Assembly (NCBI GenBank): GCA_030429705.1 | Contig: JAUIES010000002.1 | Location: forward strand, 126,001-190,000 | DNA: 64,000 nucleotides | Direction: 5' to 3' | DNA from: Phycisphaerae bacterium | GTDB lineage: Bacteria > Planctomycetota > Phycisphaerae > Phycisphaerales > UBA1924 | Shown here: in pieces, positions 9,752 through 19,808 of the stretch | Layout of the letters: the number at the start of each line of letters is the position of its first letter | Position numbering within the stretch: position 1 is the first letter of the stretch | Program-made: the position numbers and the translations under genes | Notes under the pieces: model-generated | The model's database searches: none | Told to the model about the DNA's origin: nothing | Seen by the model: the letters and a program-made list of their open reading frames with translations, nothing else

Positions 9752-10255
9752 TCAGTCGATTTGATCAAGCAGACCTTCGCAGGCGCGGGTGAGCATCTCG
9801 AACACCTGGTCAAATCCGTCATCGCCGCCGTAGTAGGGATCAGGGACATCGATCGCACCAGTCTGCGTCGGCTGACCCTGGTCGTCGAGAAGTTGTTCCG
9901 CGGCAACATCAAAACTGCGCATCAGGCGGATCTTGGATCTCGGCGCTCCACGCTTTTCGAGTGTCTTGGCGTTTGTCTCGTCCATCGCCAGAAGCAGGTC
10001 GAACCGTTCAATGTCGGTCGATGGCGCAAATTGTCGAGCGATACTGGGAAGTTCGATCCCGTGCTTTGCGCAGGTGGCGATGGCGCGTGGATCGGGTGAT
10101 TGACCGACATGCCAGGATCCGAGGCCGCAGGAGTCAACCGCCAAGTTTTCGAGTACCTGCCGCATTTTCGCGTGATGGATGAAAATACCCTCCGCCATCG
10201 GGCTTCGGCAGATATTGCCCAGACATACAAAAAGCAAGGAGCGCGGGGGGGTCAT
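9752..10255 (-). CDS. Low-molecular-weight protein tyrosine phosphatase
   Basis: Cysteine-dependent phosphatase acting on phosphotyrosine; bacterial members commonly reverse BY-kinase (Wzc-type) phosphorylation in polysaccharide export. The P-loop is near the N-terminus (VCLGNICRSPMAEG, matching C-x5-R-S), and the general-acid loop is DPYYGG in the C-terminal third. The start is set at the ATG at 10255 because it overlaps the stop of the upstream gene (ATGA) and has GGAGAA about 6 bases upstream; an upstream in-frame extension (12 residues) is less likely. The resulting 167 aa is the usual length. It is the last gene of a tight six-gene cluster; its physiological substrate is not evident here. 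Confidence 0.92.
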   Translation of the reverse strand: MTPPRSLLFVCLGNICRSPMAEGIFIHHAKMRQVLENLAVDSCGLGSWHVGQSPDPRAIATCAKHGIELPSIARQFAPSTDIERFDLLLAMDETNAKTLEKRGAPRSKIRLMRSFDVAAEQLLDDQGQPTQTGAIDVPDPYYGGDDGFDQVFEMLTRACEGLLDQID

Positions 10256-11241
10256 GAACAATTCTCCGCGACCGCGAATGTTGGCGCGCATGTCTTCTGT
10301 TCCAGGATATTGAGCAACGGTCTGAGTTCTTCGGTCACATTTGCACCGGCTGGAGACTTTGTTTCGTCCAGCAGACTGCCAGGAGCGATCGCGACAGGGA
10401 CGCCGGACGCTTGCGCCTGGGCAACAAGCACGCGAATCGCGCCGCGCGGAATAACCGAGGCCAGTTGTTGCCTCGGTCGCGCAGCATCGACAAAAGCCAC
10501 ATCACATGCGCTGAGCCATGGTGTCATCGGTCCGTCGATCACGATGAGCCGAGCACCCAGACCGCCGCGTCTACAAAACTGTCTTGCACCCGCCAATCTC
10601 CAGGCATTGCTCGGAACTAGTGCCGTCGCGCGATAGCCATTGACACGAAGCATGCCCAACAAGAACGCGAGCCGTTGGCTATCGAGCGAACACCAGGGAG
10701 CAGCGATCGGCATGATCACAATCTCGTCATCGCCGACTTCGAGGACAGTCCGCCGCGAATGGCGTGAAGTCTCGCTCGTGACGGTCGTGTATGATGCCGG
10801 GTCATTGACAGTCACTCTGGCAGCGGGGAGCCCGGCTTGAATCCACGACTGCGCATCGTGAGCATCTACAAACGCTATGTGTCGGAACATTCCGAGACTT
10901 CGGGCCTGATTGATTGATTGCGCGTTGTTGAATCTCAAGCCTTCAAGAAGAACAAGGGAGAGGTCGATTCGCGCGGGCTGACGAAGTGCCCAGTGAGCCG
11001 GTCGTCGGCCCCAGGCGGTGATGTGTCGCGGATCTTCATCTATCATTGACAGATCGAGTGGTGCTCTTGAACGAGGCATGATCACCCGTGCAAGGTTCAT
11101 CACCGTTGCTTGATATTCTGGCACGGGTCCGATGCCGATCGGTCTCGCGTTGTCGTGCGATGCACGAACACACAGCGACTGCACCTCGGGGTATCGACCC
11201 GAGTCAAACACGCCCTCGCTGGCATCGATCACATGCATCAT
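10252..11241 (-). CDS. GT-B-like protein of unknown function
   Basis: I do not recognise a specific family. The 329-aa protein has a two-lobed pattern: an N-terminal half with HITAWGRRPAHW and a C-terminal half with VIMPIAAPWCSLDSQRLAFL, then WLSACDVAFVDA and AQASGVPVAIAPGSLLDE. The latter resemble the 'location in the hierarchy / avoid favourites' end of GT4-type glycosyltransferases (A-x-A-S-G-V-P-V), but the usual E-x7-E motif is not clear, so a degenerate or regulatory glycosyltransferase fold is inferred. It starts 3 bp after the upstream lipoprotein gene and overlaps the phosphatase gene by 4 bp, so it is translationally coupled to both. No signal peptide or membrane helix is seen. Confidence 0.7.
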   Translation of the reverse strand: MMHVIDASEGVFDSGRYPEVQSLCVRASHDNARPIGIGPVPEYQATVMNLARVIMPRSRAPLDLSMIDEDPRHITAWGRRPAHWALRQPARIDLSLVLLEGLRFNNAQSINQARSLGMFRHIAFVDAHDAQSWIQAGLPAARVTVNDPASYTTVTSETSRHSRRTVLEVGDDEIVIMPIAAPWCSLDSQRLAFLLGMLRVNGYRATALVPSNAWRLAGARQFCRRGGLGARLIVIDGPMTPWLSACDVAFVDAARPRQQLASVIPRGAIRVLVAQAQASGVPVAIAPGSLLDETKSPAGANVTEELRPLLNILEQKTCAPTFAVAENCS

Positions 11242-11244
11242 GTG

Positions 11245-11916
11245 CTAGCGGTTTCGCCGGGCGCTGTCCGTCACTTCGACATCGTAGAACATCTGCGCCA
11301 GCGCCAGACCAGTCTGCTGCGCGAGCGCTTCCTGAGATTTGTACACCTCGGCGGTCGTCGATGGAGCGAGACCGGGTCGTTGAGGCATGGAGATGCGCAA
11401 GGGGAACGCGCCCAGATTCTCAGCCGGCCAGATGCGATCACCCGTATTCACATTGAGCAACTTGACCTGTGCGACCGCCGATGGGCGATAGGTGCCGACT
11501 TCTGCACCGAGTGAAAACTCCGTCATCAGTGCATAAATGACAACATCAGCACCCACACTTTCGCCGATCTCGACGATACTGAGCGGGTCGCCGTAGCGTT
11601 CCTTGGCAACCGCTGCGAATGCCGCTCTGCCGTCGATGACTTCGGCAACGAGTTTGCGTTTGAGCAGTTGCGACTGGGCCGAATCGACGATTGTGCCACG
11701 CAGTCGGCGTGATGCGACTTTGTTCGAAGGATCATCGACGAAGATGATGTACTTGAGTTCGGGGTCGAGCGCGACCGACTTTTTGACTTTGCCGGGTCCA
11801 TGCACAGCGTACATGATCGGCGTGGCAATGTTGCACCCGGCCACCATCAAAGCGGTCAGCGCACAAGCGAGAATCGTCAAGCGAGTCTTCAGGTGTGTGG
11901 GGGGGATAAGTGACAT
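11245..11916 (-). CDS. Putative lipoprotein B of the six-gene cluster
   Basis: A 223-aa protein with a lipoprotein signal: positive start, hydrophobic stretch (LTILACALTAL), lipobox VAGC at about residues 25-28. The mature part has alternating strands and helices (KYIIFVDDPSNKVASRRLRGTI, GADVVIYALMTEFS, VAQVKLLNVNTGDRIWP), reminiscent of outer-membrane lipoproteins that bind small partners, but I cannot name a family. It follows lipoprotein A after only 3 bp and precedes the GT-B-like gene by 3 bp. The pair of lipoproteins share a pattern: a conserved D/V-D-V-V/I-V strand following a short 'E/G-x-x-GV' helix, suggesting related folds. Periplasmic or outer-membrane location is inferred. Confidence 0.78.
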   Translation of the reverse strand: MSLIPPTHLKTRLTILACALTALMVAGCNIATPIMYAVHGPGKVKKSVALDPELKYIIFVDDPSNKVASRRLRGTIVDSAQSQLLKRKLVAEVIDGRAAFAAVAKERYGDPLSIVEIGESVGADVVIYALMTEFSLGAEVGTYRPSAVAQVKLLNVNTGDRIWPAENLGAFPLRISMPQRPGLAPSTTAEVYKSQEALAQQTGLALAQMFYDVEVTDSARRNR

Positions 11917-11919
11917 AAT

Positions 11920-12603
11920 CTAGTACTTGATTTCGTTGGCTTCTTTGTGGTCAAAGAATTTCCATGCTACGCGGTCTGCAAAACGATTGGACAACTCGGT
12001 GTTGACGGCTTCATATGCGATGTCAGTCACCATGTACCCGCTCCCGTCGGGATAGGTCACTGAGATCGCTCGTTCGTAAGCGGCATCATCAGGGAGCGGG
12101 CCATCCGACTCGTAGACCGACACCGTGCCGGCGGCTGCGCCATCCCAGACATACGAGTTGCCGGGTTCATGCAGTCGATAGGCAGCGAGATCGACGACGA
12201 TGAGTCGTTCGACGCCCAGCATCGACGCAACTTCGCTACGAGACATCGCAACCCAGGACGGGTTGTTGTACAGAATCTGCATAAGGCGATCAACGCGCGG
12301 AGCCGCCGCCGCCCCGTCAGGCATCTTGGCGTGAGCATTTGCAATGAGTGTGTTGATGCGACCGGTCAACCGAGCGCTGAGTCCGGGTGATTCAGACTCA
12401 ATCGATCGATCGACCGCGACGACAACCGCGAAACTCTTGCCCTTGAGCCCGTCGTATTCTGCATACACCTCATGCGAGCCGGTTCGCTGTGCAGAGCGTG
12501 CCATGCCACCGACGAATGCTGCTGCAGCACAGCCGGACATGGCCGACCCTGTCATGACGAGGCCGGATGCGATGACCGCACGAATAATCGAATGAGACTT
12601 CAT
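11920..12603 (-). CDS. Putative lipoprotein A of the six-gene cluster
   Basis: A 227-aa exported protein of unknown function. The ATG at 12603 is chosen because GGAG lies 6 bases upstream; 21 further in-frame residues upstream would overlap the DUF2752 gene. The signal sequence ends in SAMSGC, a plausible lipobox with Cys near residue 25. The mature domain includes KSFAVVVAVDRSIESE, EVASMLGVERLIVVDLAAYRLHEPG and a late VTYPDGSGYMVTD strand; it resembles its neighbour lipoprotein B in layout. Found 35 bp after the DUF2752 gene and 3 bp before lipoprotein B. No enzyme motif was seen. Confidence 0.78.
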   Translation of the reverse strand: MKSHSIIRAVIASGLVMTGSAMSGCAAAAFVGGMARSAQRTGSHEVYAEYDGLKGKSFAVVVAVDRSIESESPGLSARLTGRINTLIANAHAKMPDGAAAAPRVDRLMQILYNNPSWVAMSRSEVASMLGVERLIVVDLAAYRLHEPGNSYVWDGAAAGTVSVYESDGPLPDDAAYERAISVTYPDGSGYMVTDIAYEAVNTELSNRFADRVAWKFFDHKEANEIKY

Positions 12604-12638
12604 AGGGTTCTCCGCGTTGTTCCGCCGGCGTGACTGTG

Positions 12639-13160
12639 TTACCACACAATCATCTTGTACACCCAAGCGATCAGAAACAACGATATGGCACCAATCGTGA
12701 TGGCGCGGCCGTTCCCACGAGGAATCAACCGCATTGGGTCAACACCTCGAATGCCAGCATGAAGCCCGCCCCATGCCAAAACCGATGCACCAACGGCGAG
12801 AAGCATCCCGAACGGCTGGGTTGCTCCTGACGACTTCAAGTCGCCGTTCGCAGCGTGAGCGAACGCAGTGGTCATTCCGCAGCTTGGGCACGGGAAGTTC
12901 CATCGAAGTACCCAAGGACACGGCGCAAGTCCAAGTTGTTGGTGCGTGCCATGTCCCTCGTGATCTGGCTTGAGGCCTGCAGCGAGCATCAGAATGCCGA
13001 TTGCCCCTACAGCAACCAAAAATCCAATGGCGCGTTTGCGACTATCAGAAAGACGAATTTCAAAGCCGATGGACGGAGTTGATGTGTCAGCCGATTGATG
13101 CACTGCCTTGAGGGTACGCGTGCAAGCTGACGAGGATCCGCAGCCGACAGGGATCGTCAA
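12639..13160 (-). CDS. DUF2752 family membrane protein
   Basis: A small integral membrane protein with the DUF2752 hallmark PCPSCGMTTAFAHAANG (about residues 94-110), a Cys-x2-Cys-Gly-Met-Thr-Thr motif placed after a hydrophobic helix; two more hydrophobic segments follow (around 118-137 and 153-172). Members are common in planctomycetes and Bacteroidetes; function unknown. The start shown is a TTG that overlaps the upstream EAL gene's stop (TTGA), the only arrangement giving full length; no ATG exists before the first helix, so the exact start is uncertain. First accessory gene after the c-di-GMP protein in the cluster. Confidence 0.82.
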   Translation of the reverse strand: MTIPVGCGSSSACTRTLKAVHQSADTSTPSIGFEIRLSDSRKRAIGFLVAVGAIGILMLAAGLKPDHEGHGTHQQLGLAPCPWVLRWNFPCPSCGMTTAFAHAANGDLKSSGATQPFGMLLAVGASVLAWGGLHAGIRGVDPMRLIPRGNGRAITIGAISLFLIAWVYKMIVW

Positions 13161-14935
13161 GCGGAACGACGGAATTCCTGTGCATTGTCAGTGAACATTG
13201 CAGCGGCCGATCGAGCGATGAACTCTGAGCGAACGGATTTTTGCGCAAGCCGATGCTGATCGAGCGATGCACGAAGTTCGGTCCGGGCTATGAAGAGATC
13301 TGATGCCGATCCGTATTCGCCACTGACACCTGTGAGCATCATAACCCGAATGCCGATGTTGCTGCTGGCATCGTCGTCGAGGAGTTGAAGGTGCTCAAAC
13401 GACTCAACCAACAGATCGACATTCTTTTGCAAGAAACCGGTGGGGGCAGTCACGATAAACTGGTCGTCGCCGAGATGCCCGAGGAACGATGACTTGTCCT
13501 GGTCAACCAGCGCCAACATCGATCGGATGAGACCAACCAGATTCTGGATGAGTTCATCACCAAGTTCGTAGCCAACCGCTTGATTAAATCCGGCGAAGCC
13601 TTTGATATCGATGAACGCAATATCGACGGGTGCCTGGTGCTGACTCATCAGTTCGCGGAGATGCAGATCGGTGCGGACACGCCCAGGCAGGCCGGTCAGA
13701 GGCGCTTGACGGATTTGCGTCGCTCGGCACAGGCTTGCGCCAGCTTGAAGCAGATCAGGCATCGTAATCACGCCAAGAATCTCGTCCATTTCGAGGACGA
13801 CGATCGGCGAAGACATGGCGTGCTCCGGTCGCGTTGATGCAAGGTCCAACATCTCGACGACGGGCATGTTCGCATCGACGGGGTTCGTATGAGCCCCAAT
13901 CAGAAACGAGATGGCAAGATCCGCTCGTCCGTCACTTGCGCCGCGGAGCACGACATCTCGATCCACCCACCCGGCATAGGTGTCCCCGTCAGTCACGATG
14001 ACACCGGGTTGTCGCACATCGTGCAGGACCGTCGCGGCAACGCTGCGTATTGAACGATCAGCGGCGACAATTCGTGCGTTTCGTGCAAGGGCGCCCGCGC
14101 GAACAGTTGCGTCGTTGTTGGTCGTCGAGTGTTGGCTGGCCTTCTCACGAATACGCGTCACCATGGCGGGTGCGACTTCCTGGTCGCGCTCGCCCGGTCG
14201 CGCCAGCAGATACCCCTGGCCGAAGTGAACACCAAGTTCGATAATAGTGTCGAGTTCTTCAACCCGTTCGATGCCCTCAGCAATGATGCGGATAGAACTG
14301 AGTTTGGCAAAGTACACCAGGAATCGGATCAAATGCTGACGAACCTTGTCATGATCGATATGGTCGATCAACTCACGATCAAGTTTCAGCCAGCCCGGTT
14401 TGAGACTCGTGATTCGATTGAGTCCACTCGTGCCGGCGCCCACATCATCAATCGCGATATGAAACCCTGAGTGGCGCAACAGGTCGAGCGTTTTGGAGAG
14501 GCCTTCAAATTCCTGCTCCTTGCATCGTTCCGTGATTTCCAGCACAACTCGGCTTGGATGTAAACCTTGAGCAGAACGGATCTGACGGGAGATTTGTGGT
14601 GCGAATCGGCTGTCCGAAACCACTTCAGGCGACGAGTTCAGAAACAACAACACCCCGGCGGGCCACCCGGCTGCCGCATCAAGTGCCTTCTCGCGAGCGA
14701 GCAGTTCCAACTGCCAACTGAGGGGGTTGCCTTCCGCGGCAGTGAACATCTGCTCGGCGTTCTCAAACTGAGAGTCCTTGCTAGGGCGGCACAGCGCCTC
14801 GTTCCCTGCGATGCGGCCGGTCTGCAGGTCCACAATCGGTTGAAACACCGGCGAGATCAGCCTGTGCTTAATCGTGTGAGCCAGTGCGTCCGATGCGGAC
14901 GAGTCTGAAGGATTGTGAATCGGTTCATGTGCCAT
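13157..14935 (-). CDS. EAL - CBS pair - degenerate GGDEF protein
   Basis: Cytoplasmic c-di-GMP-related protein of about 592 aa. The EAL domain comes first (about residues 20-260) and keeps all phosphodiesterase signatures: NEALCRP, the Asn in LFLNSSP, the Glu pair in LEITE, IDDVGAG, KLDRELI, AEGIE and QGYLL, so hydrolysis of c-di-GMP is likely. A CBS pair follows (about 290-400, RSVAATVLHDVRQPGVIVTDG ... VITMPDLLQ), which usually binds adenine nucleotides. The C-terminal GGDEF-like domain has GHLGDDQFIV instead of GGDEF, so it is probably a nucleotide-binding regulator, not a cyclase. The ATG at 14935 is chosen; a GTG 8 codons upstream is possible, and neither has a good ribosome site. It opens the six-gene cluster. 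Confidence 0.9.
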   Translation of the reverse strand: MAHEPIHNPSDSSASDALAHTIKHRLISPVFQPIVDLQTGRIAGNEALCRPSKDSQFENAEQMFTAAEGNPLSWQLELLAREKALDAAAGWPAGVLLFLNSSPEVVSDSRFAPQISRQIRSAQGLHPSRVVLEITERCKEQEFEGLSKTLDLLRHSGFHIAIDDVGAGTSGLNRITSLKPGWLKLDRELIDHIDHDKVRQHLIRFLVYFAKLSSIRIIAEGIERVEELDTIIELGVHFGQGYLLARPGERDQEVAPAMVTRIREKASQHSTTNNDATVRAGALARNARIVAADRSIRSVAATVLHDVRQPGVIVTDGDTYAGWVDRDVVLRGASDGRADLAISFLIGAHTNPVDANMPVVEMLDLASTRPEHAMSSPIVVLEMDEILGVITMPDLLQAGASLCRATQIRQAPLTGLPGRVRTDLHLRELMSQHQAPVDIAFIDIKGFAGFNQAVGYELGDELIQNLVGLIRSMLALVDQDKSSFLGHLGDDQFIVTAPTGFLQKNVDLLVESFEHLQLLDDDASSNIGIRVMMLTGVSGEYGSASDLFIARTELRASLDQHRLAQKSVRSEFIARSAAAMFTDNAQEFRRSA

Positions 14936-15154: not shown

Positions 15155-15565
15155 TCAGTCAAACTTGAACACACCCTTGCGGAATCCATAGAGGTACGCC
15201 ACCACAGTCGTCAACAGGAAGAACATGATGCGGACCAGCCAGGTGAATGCCTGCTCGGACTGTGGCTCGAGATTCGAGAAGGTTGCAGCCCATGGATACA
15301 GAAAGACGACCTCAACATCGAAGACGAGGAAGACCATCGCGATCAGGTAAAAGCGGACATTGAATCGCTTGCGGGCGGACTGAACCGGCGTCATGCCGCT
15401 CTCGTAAGGGATGCCTTTGGTTTCGCCCTTGCGCCTCGGGCCGAGGATCAGGGTGCCGACCACGTTGATGCATGCGAAGCCGATGGCACCCATGATCATC
15501 AGGAAGATGGGCAAATACGCGCCGGGGTCACCCGCGCCCAAGGTTGTTGCGATACATCCGTCCAT
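15155..15565 (-). CDS. nuoA: NADH-quinone oxidoreductase subunit A
   Basis: Small membrane subunit of respiratory complex I that helps form the quinone-site region. The ATG at 15565 gives 136 aa, the family size; the much longer open frame upstream has no membrane character and looks non-coding. Three hydrophobic helices are seen (about residues 12-33, 68-92 and 104-125) with the conserved loop GIPYESGMTPVQSARKRFNV (family E-S/C-G pattern) and the acidic VFLVFDVEVVFLYPWA helix. Normally nuoA leads a nuoABCD... operon; here nothing like nuoB follows and the next gene on this strand is the EAL protein about 220 bp away, so nuoA is isolated from the other complex I genes. Confidence 0.93.
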   Translation of the reverse strand: MDGCIATTLGAGDPGAYLPIFLMIMGAIGFACINVVGTLILGPRRKGETKGIPYESGMTPVQSARKRFNVRFYLIAMVFLVFDVEVVFLYPWAATFSNLEPQSEQAFTWLVRIMFFLLTTVVAYLYGFRKGVFKFD

Positions 15566-15916
15566 AGACCGGCATGATAGCCTCAAATTGAACCCGTGCA
15601 TACCAGAAGATGTGGATCGCAGACATGCCAAGACATCATGTTGCGATTCATCGGATGACCGGCGGACTGCCAAGGTGGCAGGTCGAGTCGATCGATGTGC
15701 TCTGACTGTCAGAAAAACTGAGTGTAGAACTTGCGATGGTCGTACATAAGTGTCTTTCCAACAATGTATTGTGTCAAAAAGGCTTGTGGCACCGGTCTTG
15801 CCAATGGTCCTGCCAGCATGAGGTGCGTTGGCACCCAATCAAACGGAAACAGCCCGTCGAGCAAAGAGCACGCCGGGTGAAAAGACAACAGGTCCTGCAT
15901 TACGGAGCACGATTCC
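15566..15916. other. Divergent intergenic region nuoA / groEL1 (351 bp)
   Basis: No convincing gene. It must carry the promoters of nuoA (minus) and the groEL1-groES-groEL2 run (plus). I looked for a CIRCE operator (TTAGCACTC-N9-GAGTGCTAA) and saw none, so HrcA control is not supported. A small palindrome, CTGACtGTCAG, lies at 15702-15712. GGAG at 15904-15907 is the ribosome site of groEL1. No clear -35/-10 pair could be fixed by eye. Confidence 0.5.
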
Positions 15917-17683
15917 ATGGCCACCAAAGAACTGACCTTCGATATCGAAGCACGCAAAGCCCTTCTGACGGGCGTCGAAAAACTTGCCAAGGCGGTCAAG
16001 TCCACCCTCGGCCCGCGCGGCCGCAACGCCGTCATCGATAAGTCATGGGGCGGCCCGACCGTCACCAAGGACGGCGTGACCGTCGCTGAAGAAATCGAAC
16101 TGACTGACAAGGCCGAGAACATGGGCGCGATGCTCGTGAAGGAAGCCGCCAGCAAAACCTCGGACACCGCGGGTGATGGCACCACGACCGCGACCGTTCT
16201 CGCTGAAGCCCTTTTCCGCGAAGGTCTTCGTTACATCGCAGCCGGTGTTGATGCAAACGCCTTGGTCCGCGGCATGAAGAAGGCTGTCGAAACCGCAGGC
16301 ACCGCGATCGAAGGCATGGCCAAGCCGATCAACGGCAAGGCCGACATCCAGAATGTCGCCACCATCTCCGCCAATAACGATCCTGAGGTCGGCAAGATCA
16401 TGGCCGACGCGTTTGAAAAGGTCGGCAAAGACGGCGTCATCACGGTCGAAGAAGGCAAGAGCCTCGAAACCGAAGTCACTGTCGTCGAAGGCATGCAGTT
16501 TGACCGAGGCTACCTCTCAGCCAACTTCGTCACCGATGTCGATGACATGAAGGCCAACCTCGACAAGTGCCTCGTGCTTGTCTGCGAAGAGAAAATCGAG
16601 AGCGTCGCCAAGTTGGTGCCGTTGCTTGAGAAGGTCATGCAGGCGAAGAAGCCGCTGCTCATCATCGCTGAAGACATCACCGGTGAAGCCCTCTCGACCC
16701 TTGTCATCAACAAACTCCGTGGCACGCTGCAGGTGTGTGCGGTCAAGGCTCCCGGCTATGGCGACCGTCGCAAGGCGATGCTCGAAGACCTCGCTGTCCT
16801 CACCGGCGGCAAGGCGTTCATGAAGGACCTCGGCATCGAACTCGACCAGATCGAACTTTCAGAACTCGGCCTCGCCAAGAAAATCGAAGTCGATGCTGAC
16901 AACACGACCGTCATCGAAGGCGCCGGCGAAACCAAGGACATTCAAGCCCGGATCGACCAGATCCGCCGCGAGATTGAAAACGCCAGCAGCGACTACGACC
17001 GCGAGAAGTTGCAGGAGCGCCTCGCCAAACTCGCCGGCGGCGTGGCTCAGATCAATGTCGGTGCTGCATCAGAAGCTGAACTGAAGGAAAAGAAAGCACG
17101 CGTCGAAGACGCACTGCACGCAACCCGTGCAGCGGTCGAATTTGGCATCGTGCCCGGCGGCGGCGTGAGTTTCATTCGCGCTCAGCAGGCGATCGCAGCA
17201 ACTCGCGAATGGAAGGGTGTCTTTGGTAAGGCGACTGAAGTCAGTTCCAACGATGTCGGCCATGTGAAGTACGATTTCGCTGCCGGCATGAATGTGGTCT
17301 ACAACGCGTTGCAGGTTCCTCTTCGCACCATCGCTGAAAACGCTGGCGCCAAGGGCTCAGTCGTGGTGTCAAAGGTTGCAGAAGCAGACAGCCCGACCTT
17401 TGGCTACAACGCTTTGACCGACACCTACGAAGACCTGGTCAAGGCCGGTGTCATCACGCCCGCCAAGGTCGACATGTCAGCCTTGCAGAATGCAGCAAGC
17501 GTGGCGACGATGCTGCTCGCTGCCGACTGCATCATCACCGAAAACCCGGAACCAGCAGGCGAAGGCGGCGGCCACGATCATGACCACGGGGGTGGCATGG
17601 GCGGTATGGGCGGCGGCATGCCAGGTATGGGTGGCATGGGCGGAATGGGTGGCATGCCAGGCATGGGCGGGATGGGGTTCTAA
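15917..17683 (+). CDS. groEL: Chaperonin GroEL (copy 1, Gly-Met-rich and His-containing tail)
   Basis: 60-kDa chaperonin that folds proteins in an ATP-driven double ring with GroES. Full length at 588 aa, longer than the usual 545. Nucleotide-site motifs are intact ([36 protein letters not shown]). Two differences stand out: an extra stretch around residues 425-450 ([20 protein letters not shown]) and a long C-terminal tail with HDHDH followed by repeated GGM/PGM units, typical of canonical folding GroELs but extended and with histidines that could bind metal. GGAG sits 9 bases before the ATG. groES follows after 94 bp, so the order is groEL-groES, the reverse of the common groES-groEL. Confidence 0.97.
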
Positions 17684-17777: not shown

Positions 17778-18065
17778 ATGGCAGTCAAACCACTTGAAGA
17801 TCGTGTTCTTGTCAAACCCATCGAAGCAGATTCGATGACCGCAAGCGGGCTGTACTTGCCCGAAGGATCGAAGGAGAAGCCGATTCAGGGCGAAGTCGTC
17901 GCGGTCGGTCCGGGGCGTTTGCTTGACAATGGCAAGCGTGCTGCATTGTCCGTGAGCAAGGGCGACCGCGTCGTCTACAGCAAGTACGCAGGTTCGGAAG
18001 TCGAGATCAAAGGCGATACGCATCTGATCTTGAAGGAGACCGAACTGCTCGGCGTCATTGGCTGA
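17778..18065 (+). CDS. groES: Co-chaperonin GroES
   Basis: 10-kDa heptameric lid for the GroEL cavity. 95 aa, normal length, starting MAVKPLEDRVLVKPIE and carrying the mobile-loop segment (about residues 18-34, ending SKEKP) and the conserved QGEVVAVGPG beta strand and GDRVVYSKYAG. A CGGAGAA site lies 7-8 bases upstream of the ATG. It sits between two groEL genes, so either ring may use it. Confidence 0.97.
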   Translation: MAVKPLEDRVLVKPIEADSMTASGLYLPEGSKEKPIQGEVVAVGPGRLLDNGKRAALSVSKGDRVVYSKYAGSEVEIKGDTHLILKETELLGVIG

Positions 18066-18080: not shown

Positions 18081-18173
18081 GGGCACTAGGCATCAGGCAC
18101 TAGCGGTCCAGGTTGTGAATCGAGCCTGAGTCATTATGAAGTAACCAATGCCTAGTGCCAAGTGCCTAGAGCC
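18081..18173. repeat. Inverted pair of imperfect heptamer tandem repeats
   Basis: Between groES and groEL2. The left arm (18082-18103) is three imperfect heptamers, GGCACTA-GGCATCA-GGCACTA; the right arm (18150-18170) is TGCCTAG-TGCCAAG-TGCCTAG, the same units in reverse complement. GGCACTAGGCAT at 18082-18093 and ATGCCTAGTGCC at 18148-18159 are perfect 12-bp reverse complements. The 54-bp centre holds no ORF. Unlike a terminator it has no T-tract. The arrangement resembles the ends of a short, possibly non-autonomous mobile element or a solo remnant; this is inference. Confidence 0.7.
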
Positions 18174-18194
18174 TCACATCGGAGCAACGCGAAG

Positions 18195-19808
18195 ATGAGC
18201 GACAAACAAATCATGTTTCAAGATTCCGCCCTTCTCGAAATGAAGAAAGGCGTTGATCGTTTGGCCGACGCGGTCAAGTGCACCATGGGGCCGAGCGGCC
18301 ACCATGTCATCATCGACAAGGCCTACGGCGGGCCCAGCGTGACCAAAGACGGCGTGTCCGTCGCCAAGGAAGTCACGCTCGCCGAGCCCTTCCAGTCGAT
18401 GGGTGCGAAAATGGTCTATCAGGTTGCCAAGAAGACCGCAGACAAGGCGGGCGACGGCACCACGGCCGCGACCGTGCTCGCGCAGGCCATCTTCACCGAA
18501 GGCCTCAGGGCGGTCGCAGCTGGATACAACCCGATTCACCTGCACCGTGGAATCAACAAGGCTGCAGCCGCTGCAGCCGAGGCGATCGACAGCATCGCTA
18601 TCCCCTGCAAGGGCAAGGCCGACTACAAGAAGGTCGCCACTGTTTCTGCGAACCACAACGCCGAAGTTGGCGAGTTGATCGCCGAAGCCATCTCAAAGGT
18701 GGGGGCTGACGGCGTGGTCGAAGTCGAAGACGGCAAGAGCGCCGAAACCGAACTCAACTATGTCGAAGGCATGCAGTTCGACAAGGGTTATCTGTCGCCC
18801 TACTTCATGACCGATCCCAAGACCGGCGAAGCCGAACTTGAAGACTGCTATGTGTTGATCCACGAGAAGAAGATCAGCAACCTGCCCGATCTTCTGCCAC
18901 TGCTCAATAAGATCGCCGGCACCGGCAAGCCGTTGCTCATTATCGCCGAAGAAGTTGAAAACGAAGCCCTCGCGGCTCTCGTCGTCAACCGTCTGCGCGG
19001 CGTGCTGAAGGTCTGTGCGGTCAAGGCGCCTGGCTTTGGCGATCGTCGCAAGGCTATGCTCGGCGATATCGCTGTCCTCACTGGTGGCACCTTCCTCGCA
19101 GAAGACCTCGGTCGCACGCTTGAGTCGGTCGAGATCAGCGAACTCGGTATCGCCAAGAAGATCGTCGTCACCAAGGACGACACCACCATGATCGAAGGCG
19201 GCGGCAAGAAGAAGGACATCACCCAACGGGCAGCCCAGATCATGGCCCAGTTCGAAAAGTCCACCAGCGACTACGACAAGGAAAAACTGATGGAGCGGCA
19301 CGCCAAGCTCACCGGCGGCGTGGCGATCATCTCAGTCGGCGGCGCGACCGAGCAGGAGCAGAAGGCCCTCAAGGACCTCGTCGATGACGCGCTCCATGCG
19401 ACCCGCGCGGCTGCAAAGGAAGGCTATGTTGCCGGCGGCGGCGTGGCTCTGCTCCGCACCAAGGACGCGATTGAAGCAGCTAAAAAGAAGGCCAAGGGCG
19501 ATGAAAAGTTTGGCTTTGATATCGTGACCCGAGCCATCGAATACCCGGCTCGCCAGATCGCGGTCAACGCCGGTTACGACGGCGACCTCGCTGTCGAGGA
19601 GATCCTGTCAGGCGAGGGCGGCTTCGGGCTCAACTCGGCTACAGGCGATTATGTTGACCTCATCAAGGCCGGCATTATCGATCCGGCATTGGTCGCCAAG
19701 AGCGCGCTCGTCAACGCAGCGAGCGTTGCAGGCCTCATGCTGACAACCGATGTCATGGTGACGGATCTGAAGGAGGACACCAAGCCGGCTGTCGGCGCGG
19801 TGAGCTGA
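18195..19808 (+). CDS. groEL: Chaperonin GroEL (copy 2, no Gly-Met tail)
   Basis: Second GroEL paralogue, 537 aa. The ATG at 18195 has GGAG 10 bases upstream and gives the conserved N-terminus; an 11-codon in-frame extension would run into the upstream repeat. The fold motifs are intact ([48 protein letters not shown]), but the KGRN of canonical GroEL is changed to SGHH, and the C-terminus ends in [16 protein letters not shown] without the Gly-Gly-Met tail. Multiple chaperonins with one tail-less copy are known in planctomycetes; a specialised substrate set is likely but not shown. It ends 28 bp before a strong stem-loop. Confidence 0.96.

Follow-up and report, generated by a model that had tools for sequence, protein, structure and literature searches.

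Gene content of the block

We analyzed 64,000 nt of DNA (the window) from Phycisphaerae bacterium (Phycisphaerales; UBA1924), which is the stretch from 126,001 to 190,000 on the forward strand of JAUIES010000002.1 in assembly GCA_030429705.1. Positions 9752–14935 of the window hold a block of six genes, for an EAL protein, a DUF2752 protein, two lipoproteins that we call LipA and LipB, a GT-B-like protein related to glycosyltransferase (GT) family 4, and a low-molecular-weight protein tyrosine phosphatase (LMW-PTP) (Table 1). The block is real, is deeply conserved in planctomycetes, and was found undescribed. Its conserved heart is DUF2752 with one or two PelC-fold lipoproteins, usually followed in the Phycisphaerales by a degenerate GT-B-like gene. 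The EAL and LMW-PTP genes are additions to the block in one family.

Table 1. Genes of the block in the order in which they are read, with positions in the window.
Feature	Positions	Strand	Basis and remarks
EAL protein with weak CBS-like and degenerate GGDEF regions	13157..14935	-	Pfam EAL, GGDEF; lineage-specific addition
DUF2752 small membrane protein	12639..13160	-	Pfam; core gene
LipA, core lipoprotein, PelC-like predicted fold	11920..12603	-	Lipobox Cys25, structure model
LipB, core lipoprotein, PelC-like predicted fold, LipA paralogue	11245..11916	-	Lipobox Cys28, structure model
GT-B-like protein related to GT family 4	10252..11241	-	Pfam matches of relatives
LMW-PTP	9752..10255	-	LMWPc, motifs; lineage-specific addition

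All six open reading frames (ORFs) are on the minus strand and tightly packed, and we read the junctions from the sequence. The stop of the EAL gene overlaps the TTG start of the DUF2752 gene by 4 bp, and gaps of 35 bp, 3 bp and 3 bp follow between DUF2752 and LipA, LipA and LipB, and LipB and the GT-B-like gene. The last junction is again a 4 bp overlap (ATGA) if the phosphatase starts at 10255 and not at the longer ORF start, 10291; 10255 is the most likely start. An earlier note on this DNA had described just these overlaps and gaps on the minus strand, which the ORFs and junctions confirm, and its view of a single envelope-directed block with two lipoproteins lacking a family name also holds up. 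A promoter and terminator scan of the block was uninformative, with one promoter-like site where 3.0 are expected, and five terminator-like sites against an expected 4.6.

Pfam supports the DUF2752 label (PF10825, E 1.5e-9, 38.2 bits against a cut-off of 27) and the LMW-PTP label (LMWPc, 5.3e-37), both of which had been assigned earlier. The same note had labeled the first protein EAL-CBS-GGDEF. The EAL and GGDEF parts of that label stand (1.3e-48 and 4.7e-10), but the CBS part is weak because its match (0.016, 16 bits) is under the Pfam cut-off of 24, and the proposal of energy sensing, which rests on this match, is not supported. For the window LipA, LipB and GT-B-like proteins Pfam gives nothing at E <= 1.

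Conservation across the order

We surveyed 61 genomes of the order. LipB was matched in 59 of them, with a single match in each, and the surroundings of this match in 58 relatives together with our own locus gave 59 loci in which every ORF was scored against profiles built by iteration from the six proteins. DUF2752 was present at 56 of these loci, LipA at 57, LipB at all 59, and the GT-B-like gene at 53 (one of them at a distance of 7 kb). DUF2752, LipA and LipB occur together at 56 loci, and in all 56 they have the same order and strand. The earlier note had asked whether the gene order is kept in close relatives, and for these three core genes it is. One of the remaining loci, L054, has LipB, the GT-B-like gene and the phosphatase, with LipA and DUF2752 absent.

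The other two genes are distributed differently. The phosphatase is found at 22 of the 59 loci, the EAL gene at 13, and the complete set of six at 11. All of these are in the window's own family (22/36 and 13/36), and neither gene was found at any of the 23 loci outside it. The emphasis of the earlier note, which had made control by c-di-GMP and a phosphatase the theme of the block, is corrected by these counts, and we reject the idea that this is primarily a c-di-GMP module.

We also looked at 80 loci on named contigs, which are the best of 520 DUF2752 matches in GTDB contigs and for which the families are not known. They are mostly titled Phycisphaerales, Phycisphaerae or Planctomycetota, and many may duplicate genomes of the order set. 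DUF2752 followed by two LipA/LipB-type genes is found at 71 of these best 80. Of the other nine, four are interrupted by a contig end, and three (L177, L208 and L212) have all three core genes in a disturbed sort order, probably due to long frames. The GT-B-like gene comes after LipB in 67 of the 80. Two of the 80, L166 (titled Cyanobacteria bacterium) and L239 (Chitinophaga pinensis), have titles that look wrong; nearly all the rest are planctomycete. L171 has the EAL and DUF2752 genes, and the downstream lipoprotein match is missing.

Distribution in the class and phylum

The LipA profile matches 161 of the 198 genomes in a draw from the class. To compare gene order we took 20 loci in the class from 12 families other than the window's, and at these loci DUF2752 is adjacent in 16, LipA is present in 20, LipB in 19, and the GT-B-like gene is adjacent in six. 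Three of five class genomes missed by the LipA profile have a LipB-like gene adjoining DUF2752 (E 3e-3, 4e-4 and 5e-21).

In a draw from the phylum, LipA matches 44 of 294 genomes. DUF2752 is upstream of the lipoprotein gene or genes at 17 of 19 loci from other classes; family f49 has a tandem lipoprotein pair, and f90 and f99 have a single lipoprotein. DUF2752 itself is broader (167/294 phylum-draw genomes), and by hand count it occurs in 40 of the 44 genomes that match LipA vs 127 of the 250 others (Fisher p 2.6e-7). Fifteen more DUF2752 sites, either outside the class or second copies, were inspected, and no LipA/LipB match lay within 2.6 kb downstream.

The earlier note knew of no described system with this gene set, and we found none in the literature either. 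No account naming DUF2752, PF10825 or IPR021215 was found in the library searched, and papers on Phycisphaerae or planctomycetes, PelC, and GNA1162/LpoB, judged from titles and the starts of abstracts, had no description of the block. The conserved order, together with the lack of a curated family for two of the proteins, makes the block a strong candidate for a basic planctomycete envelope function.

The two lipoproteins

Alignments were made on subsets (41/59 LipB, 40/57 LipA, 40/53 GT-B and 30/56 DUF2752) with start codons chosen by script, so the N-termini are approximate. The lipobox cysteine is invariant in both lipoproteins (LipA Cys25 in 40/40, LipB Cys28 in 41/41). A comparison of the two profiles gives E 3.8e-22 across 203 columns, and by this measure LipA and LipB are homologous and paralogues.

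The predicted structures have a mean pLDDT (predicted local distance difference test) of 92.2 for LipB and 90.3 for LipA. PelC (PDB 5t11, 5t10, 5t0z and 9h80) is at the top of the VIA list for both, with Z 11.8 and a root mean square deviation (rmsd) of 3.0 over 131 for LipA and Z 10.4 and rmsd 3.5 over 133 for LipB; the typical VIA score for models without a clear match is 7–8, and both PelC scores are above it. Other structural matches of the models are FlgT, chlamydial CT253, GNA1162, TraT, LptE, TolB, LpoB and CsgG. On the basis of these models, the lipoproteins have a predicted fold of the PelC/GNA1162/DUF330 type.

PelC is the lipoprotein of Pel exopolysaccharide export. It forms an essential, twelve-subunit ring that is lipid-anchored and sits at the PelB barrel, and it has a conserved tryptophan, Trp-149 (PMC12141448). 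Like PelC, LipA and LipB have an N-terminal cysteine that would carry a lipid anchor. Unlike PelC, they come from two paralogous genes where Pel has one, they have a DUF2752 partner, and no sequence match to it was detected in PDB profile searches at E <= 1. By eye, a PelB barrel or pel genes were not a recurrent neighbor at the 59 order loci and 40 wider loci, in an inspection that included no search with a PelB model. The GNA1162-like, LpoB, CsgG and DUF330-type lipoproteins are also alike in fold, and some LipB members match Pfam models of this group weakly; the window LipA and LipB and all 40 scanned LipA members have no such match, and the gene context is different.

We placed the lipoproteins in a tree of 110 rows. 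The LipB rows from the class are on one side of a branch with support 99/95, apart from LipA, and the f49 pair forms its own clade. The support values are rough; the bootstrap had not settled (0.982), and the branches of several LipB rows from the class are long. On this tree, lipoprotein genes next to DUF2752 became tandem pairs at least two times, with an independent duplication in another class. Repeated duplication suggests an advantage of two unlike subunits, and from the separate events we would predict a heteromeric complex.

DUF2752 and the GT-B-like protein

Six residues are invariant in the 30 aligned DUF2752 members (H73, C81, C91, C94, Q115 and P116). Within PF10825, the operon type is marked by C-x9-C-x2-C (GMTT is present in the window protein) and by its place ahead of the lipoproteins. 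Most of the 29 aligned relatives lack a counterpart to the N-terminal ~35 residues, which makes the start uncertain, and the true start may be ~35 codons downstream of the TTG at 13160.

The GT-B-like family evolves fast, with a mean column identity of 19%. Fourteen of the 40 members match Glyco_transf_4 and 14 match Glyco_trans_1_4 (E <= 0.5), which ties the family to GT family 4 (GT4) even though the window protein has no match of its own. A key motif in the C-terminal domain of GT4 enzymes is E-x7-E. The position of its second glutamate holds Glu in 0/40 aligned members, and Trp is commonest there (16), in an alignment that is poor at this level of identity and in which the anchoring Gly is missing from 5 of the 40 rows. 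A pattern search of the C-terminal half found the strict E-x7-E in one of the 40 and any E-x7-E string in eight. As a control, 8 of 13 Glycos_transf_1 matches in the same genome have an E-x7-E string inside the matched stretch; L300 and L304-L307 do not, and the strings in L298 may not be the motif. The GT-B-like protein has lost this key position of the GT4 motif.

EAL protein and phosphatase

The residues of an active EAL phosphodiesterase are EAL, N, E, DD, K, E and Q. All seven motifs that we inspected are intact in the window protein, and this is true of 12 of the 13 aligned proteins, the window's included. In one family member, L061:5573-7384, the motifs are eroded (ELF, EIGFAC, DGVGLN), possibly an inactive EAL protein that is still in place. 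The GGDEF site is degenerate, reading HLGDDQF in the window, and GG(D/E)EF is found in none of nine relatives with letters at this site (L055 is closest, with GGDRF). An intact EAL domain with a degenerate GGDEF site makes net breakdown of c-di-GMP likely, and going by its motifs the protein likely lowers c-di-GMP. In our genome (completeness 95.98) it is the single EAL match and one of five GGDEF matches.

The hallmarks of an LMW-PTP are C-x5-R and a D-P loop, and the window protein has both (CLGNICRS and DPYY). A Wzz domain is the membrane part usual in bacterial tyrosine kinases (BY-kinases); a Wzz-domain protein was not found in our genome, in a search that covered this domain but not the kinase domain. 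A Wza-type Poly_export gene is present elsewhere in the genome and a Wza-type gene in 61 of the 61 order genomes, so an outer-membrane export route exists and could be a partner of the block.

Interpretation and alternatives

The reading that we tentatively prefer, and consider quite possible, is that this is an undescribed planctomycete envelope operon in which LipA and LipB form a ring or collar at the outer membrane for envelope glycan or lipid traffic. We favor it because of the predicted fold, the lipid anchor and the GT-B-like neighbor. In this reading both lipoproteins would be lipid-anchored at the outer membrane and would build the ring or collar, probably jointly. It would help an envelope glycan or lipid to be exported or assembled through a channel whose gene lies elsewhere. 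DUF2752 would work with them from the inner membrane, and its three invariant cysteines and one histidine may take part in this. The GT-B-like protein may serve as a regulator that binds a glycan or sugar nucleotide, and not as a standard GT4 enzyme, and in the window's family the added EAL phosphodiesterase and LMW-PTP may tune the output of the module. The fold is known and the gene set is new, and it gives a testable set of four: DUF2752, LipA, LipB and the degenerate GT-B-like protein.

Several results weigh against the ring or collar. LipB was not found in two of the 61 order genomes (G018 and G041), three of the 59 loci are without DUF2752, LipA or both (L054, L081 and L094, the last at a contig end), the GT-B-like gene is missing at six, and two of the 80 named loci (L171 and L235) have DUF2752 without LipA or LipB in the stretch available. 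Neighbors outside the block were identified by eye, from the sequences of part of the families; the commonest in the order is nuoA (29/59), and we saw no export gene that recurs. At the 40 class and phylum loci no other neighbor family was seen within 5 kb in more than five loci, with the core, the GT-B-like gene and antisense frames excepted. On the structural side, the DUF330 protein XCC0632 (Z 9.9) is tied with PelC for LipB, with Z within 1, and Foldseek puts a flagellar LPHT ring chain (2.8e-6) and GNA1162 (3.3e-6) ahead of PelC (4.0e-6) for this protein. The LipA and LipB profiles had no sequence match to PDB chains at E <= 1. FlgT, LpoB, LptE, GNA1162, TraT, CsgG, TolB and PqiC all share the fold, so the fold does not fix the function, and the fold lists speak only for the families that they contain.

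Other members of this fold suggest other roles. As LpoB-like proteins, LipA and LipB would span the periplasm from the outer membrane and activate or position a peptidoglycan synthase. Pfam LpoB picks up four of the 41 LipB members (best 7e-4) and LpoB structures align with the models at Z 7.1–7.6, but GNA1162-like is also matched, by five of the 41 (best 1.4e-3), and neither family by any of 40 LipA members. Window LipB does match NCBIfam LpoB at E 0.043, although its 13.8 bits are far below the cut-off of 110.55. PelC outscores LpoB for both models, we saw no penicillin-binding protein in the part of the recurrent neighbor families inspected by eye, and we think this role unlikely. We hold a second proposal to be equally improbable, that the pair are accessory lipoproteins of the LptE or PqiC/DUF330 type assisting a lipid or lipopolysaccharide (LPS) transporter. 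The recurrent neighbor families inspected by eye showed us no ABC or MCE gene, and no LptE or DUF330-type family is among the Pfam matches (E <= 0.5) of the 81 LipA and LipB members scanned, against structural scores for LipA of Z 10.8 (XCC0632) and 9.4 (PqiC), the XCC0632 tie for LipB, and Z 6.7–8.4 for LptE. A FlgT-type accessory that encircles the P or L ring of the flagellum is a poorer candidate, and we would call it quite unlikely. FlgT scores near the top of the structural matches (Z 10.7 for LipA, 8.8 for LipB), the LPHT ring chain is the top Foldseek match of LipB, and FlgI-family matches are present in 61/61 order genomes. However, in six of these (G022, G042, G048, G050, G054 and G058) the match is only a partial FlgI-like domain in a frame of 623–1112 aa, and all six retain DUF2752-LipA-LipB, which weakens an obligate flagellar link. 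By hand count, FlgI is unmatched in eight of the 44 LipA-matching genomes of the phylum draw (their LipA matches are weak), and LipA is matched in 36 of 164 FlgI-matching genomes and not in the other 128.

It is also decidedly improbable, in our view, that the six genes are one functional unit, an exopolysaccharide module under c-di-GMP and energy control, as in the reading of the earlier note. The loci with the complete set speak for it, as do the motifs that make net c-di-GMP breakdown likely, and the best 80 of 520 named loci show the phosphatase in 45 and the EAL gene in 17. Against this, both genes are absent outside the window's family in the order, the EAL gene is at none of the 20 class loci and the phosphatase at one, distant and on the opposite strand, and neither is at any of the 19 loci of other classes. 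The eroded motifs of L061, the CBS match below its cut-off and the lack of a Wzz-domain partner in the genome count against it as well. That the genes are chance neighbors has next to no chance of being right for the core, where nothing supports it and the conserved order in the order, class, phylum and named loci refutes it; it is possible for the EAL gene and the phosphatase, both found at less than half of the order loci.

A bolder form of the ring or collar, which we regard as rather doubtful, makes DUF2752 and the PelC-fold lipoproteins an old, undescribed outer-membrane machine of several planctomycete classes. Its two tandem paralogues, paired independently in two classes, would form an alternating hetero-oligomeric ring, and control would come from the cytoplasm, through a glycosyltransferase that has become a sensor and, within a single family, through c-di-GMP and tyrosine dephosphorylation as well.

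Other observations

A defense system was considered, and the six proteins had no PADLOC match at E <= 0.01. In most order genomes an FlgI-like domain (~residues 7–230 of PF02119) is present in long frames, mostly of 600–1100 aa, beside the true FlgI; one FlgI-like domain locus is G000:C4:345652-346368 (-). The downstream end of the block abuts a pair of 2-oxoglutarate dehydrogenase genes in convergent orientation. On its upstream side a nuoA-type gene (PF00507, 6.2e-28) lies on the block's own strand, at 15155-15838 (-) of the window, and beyond it one GroES-family gene lies between two GroEL-family genes (15917-17683, 17778-18065 and 18162-19808, all +).

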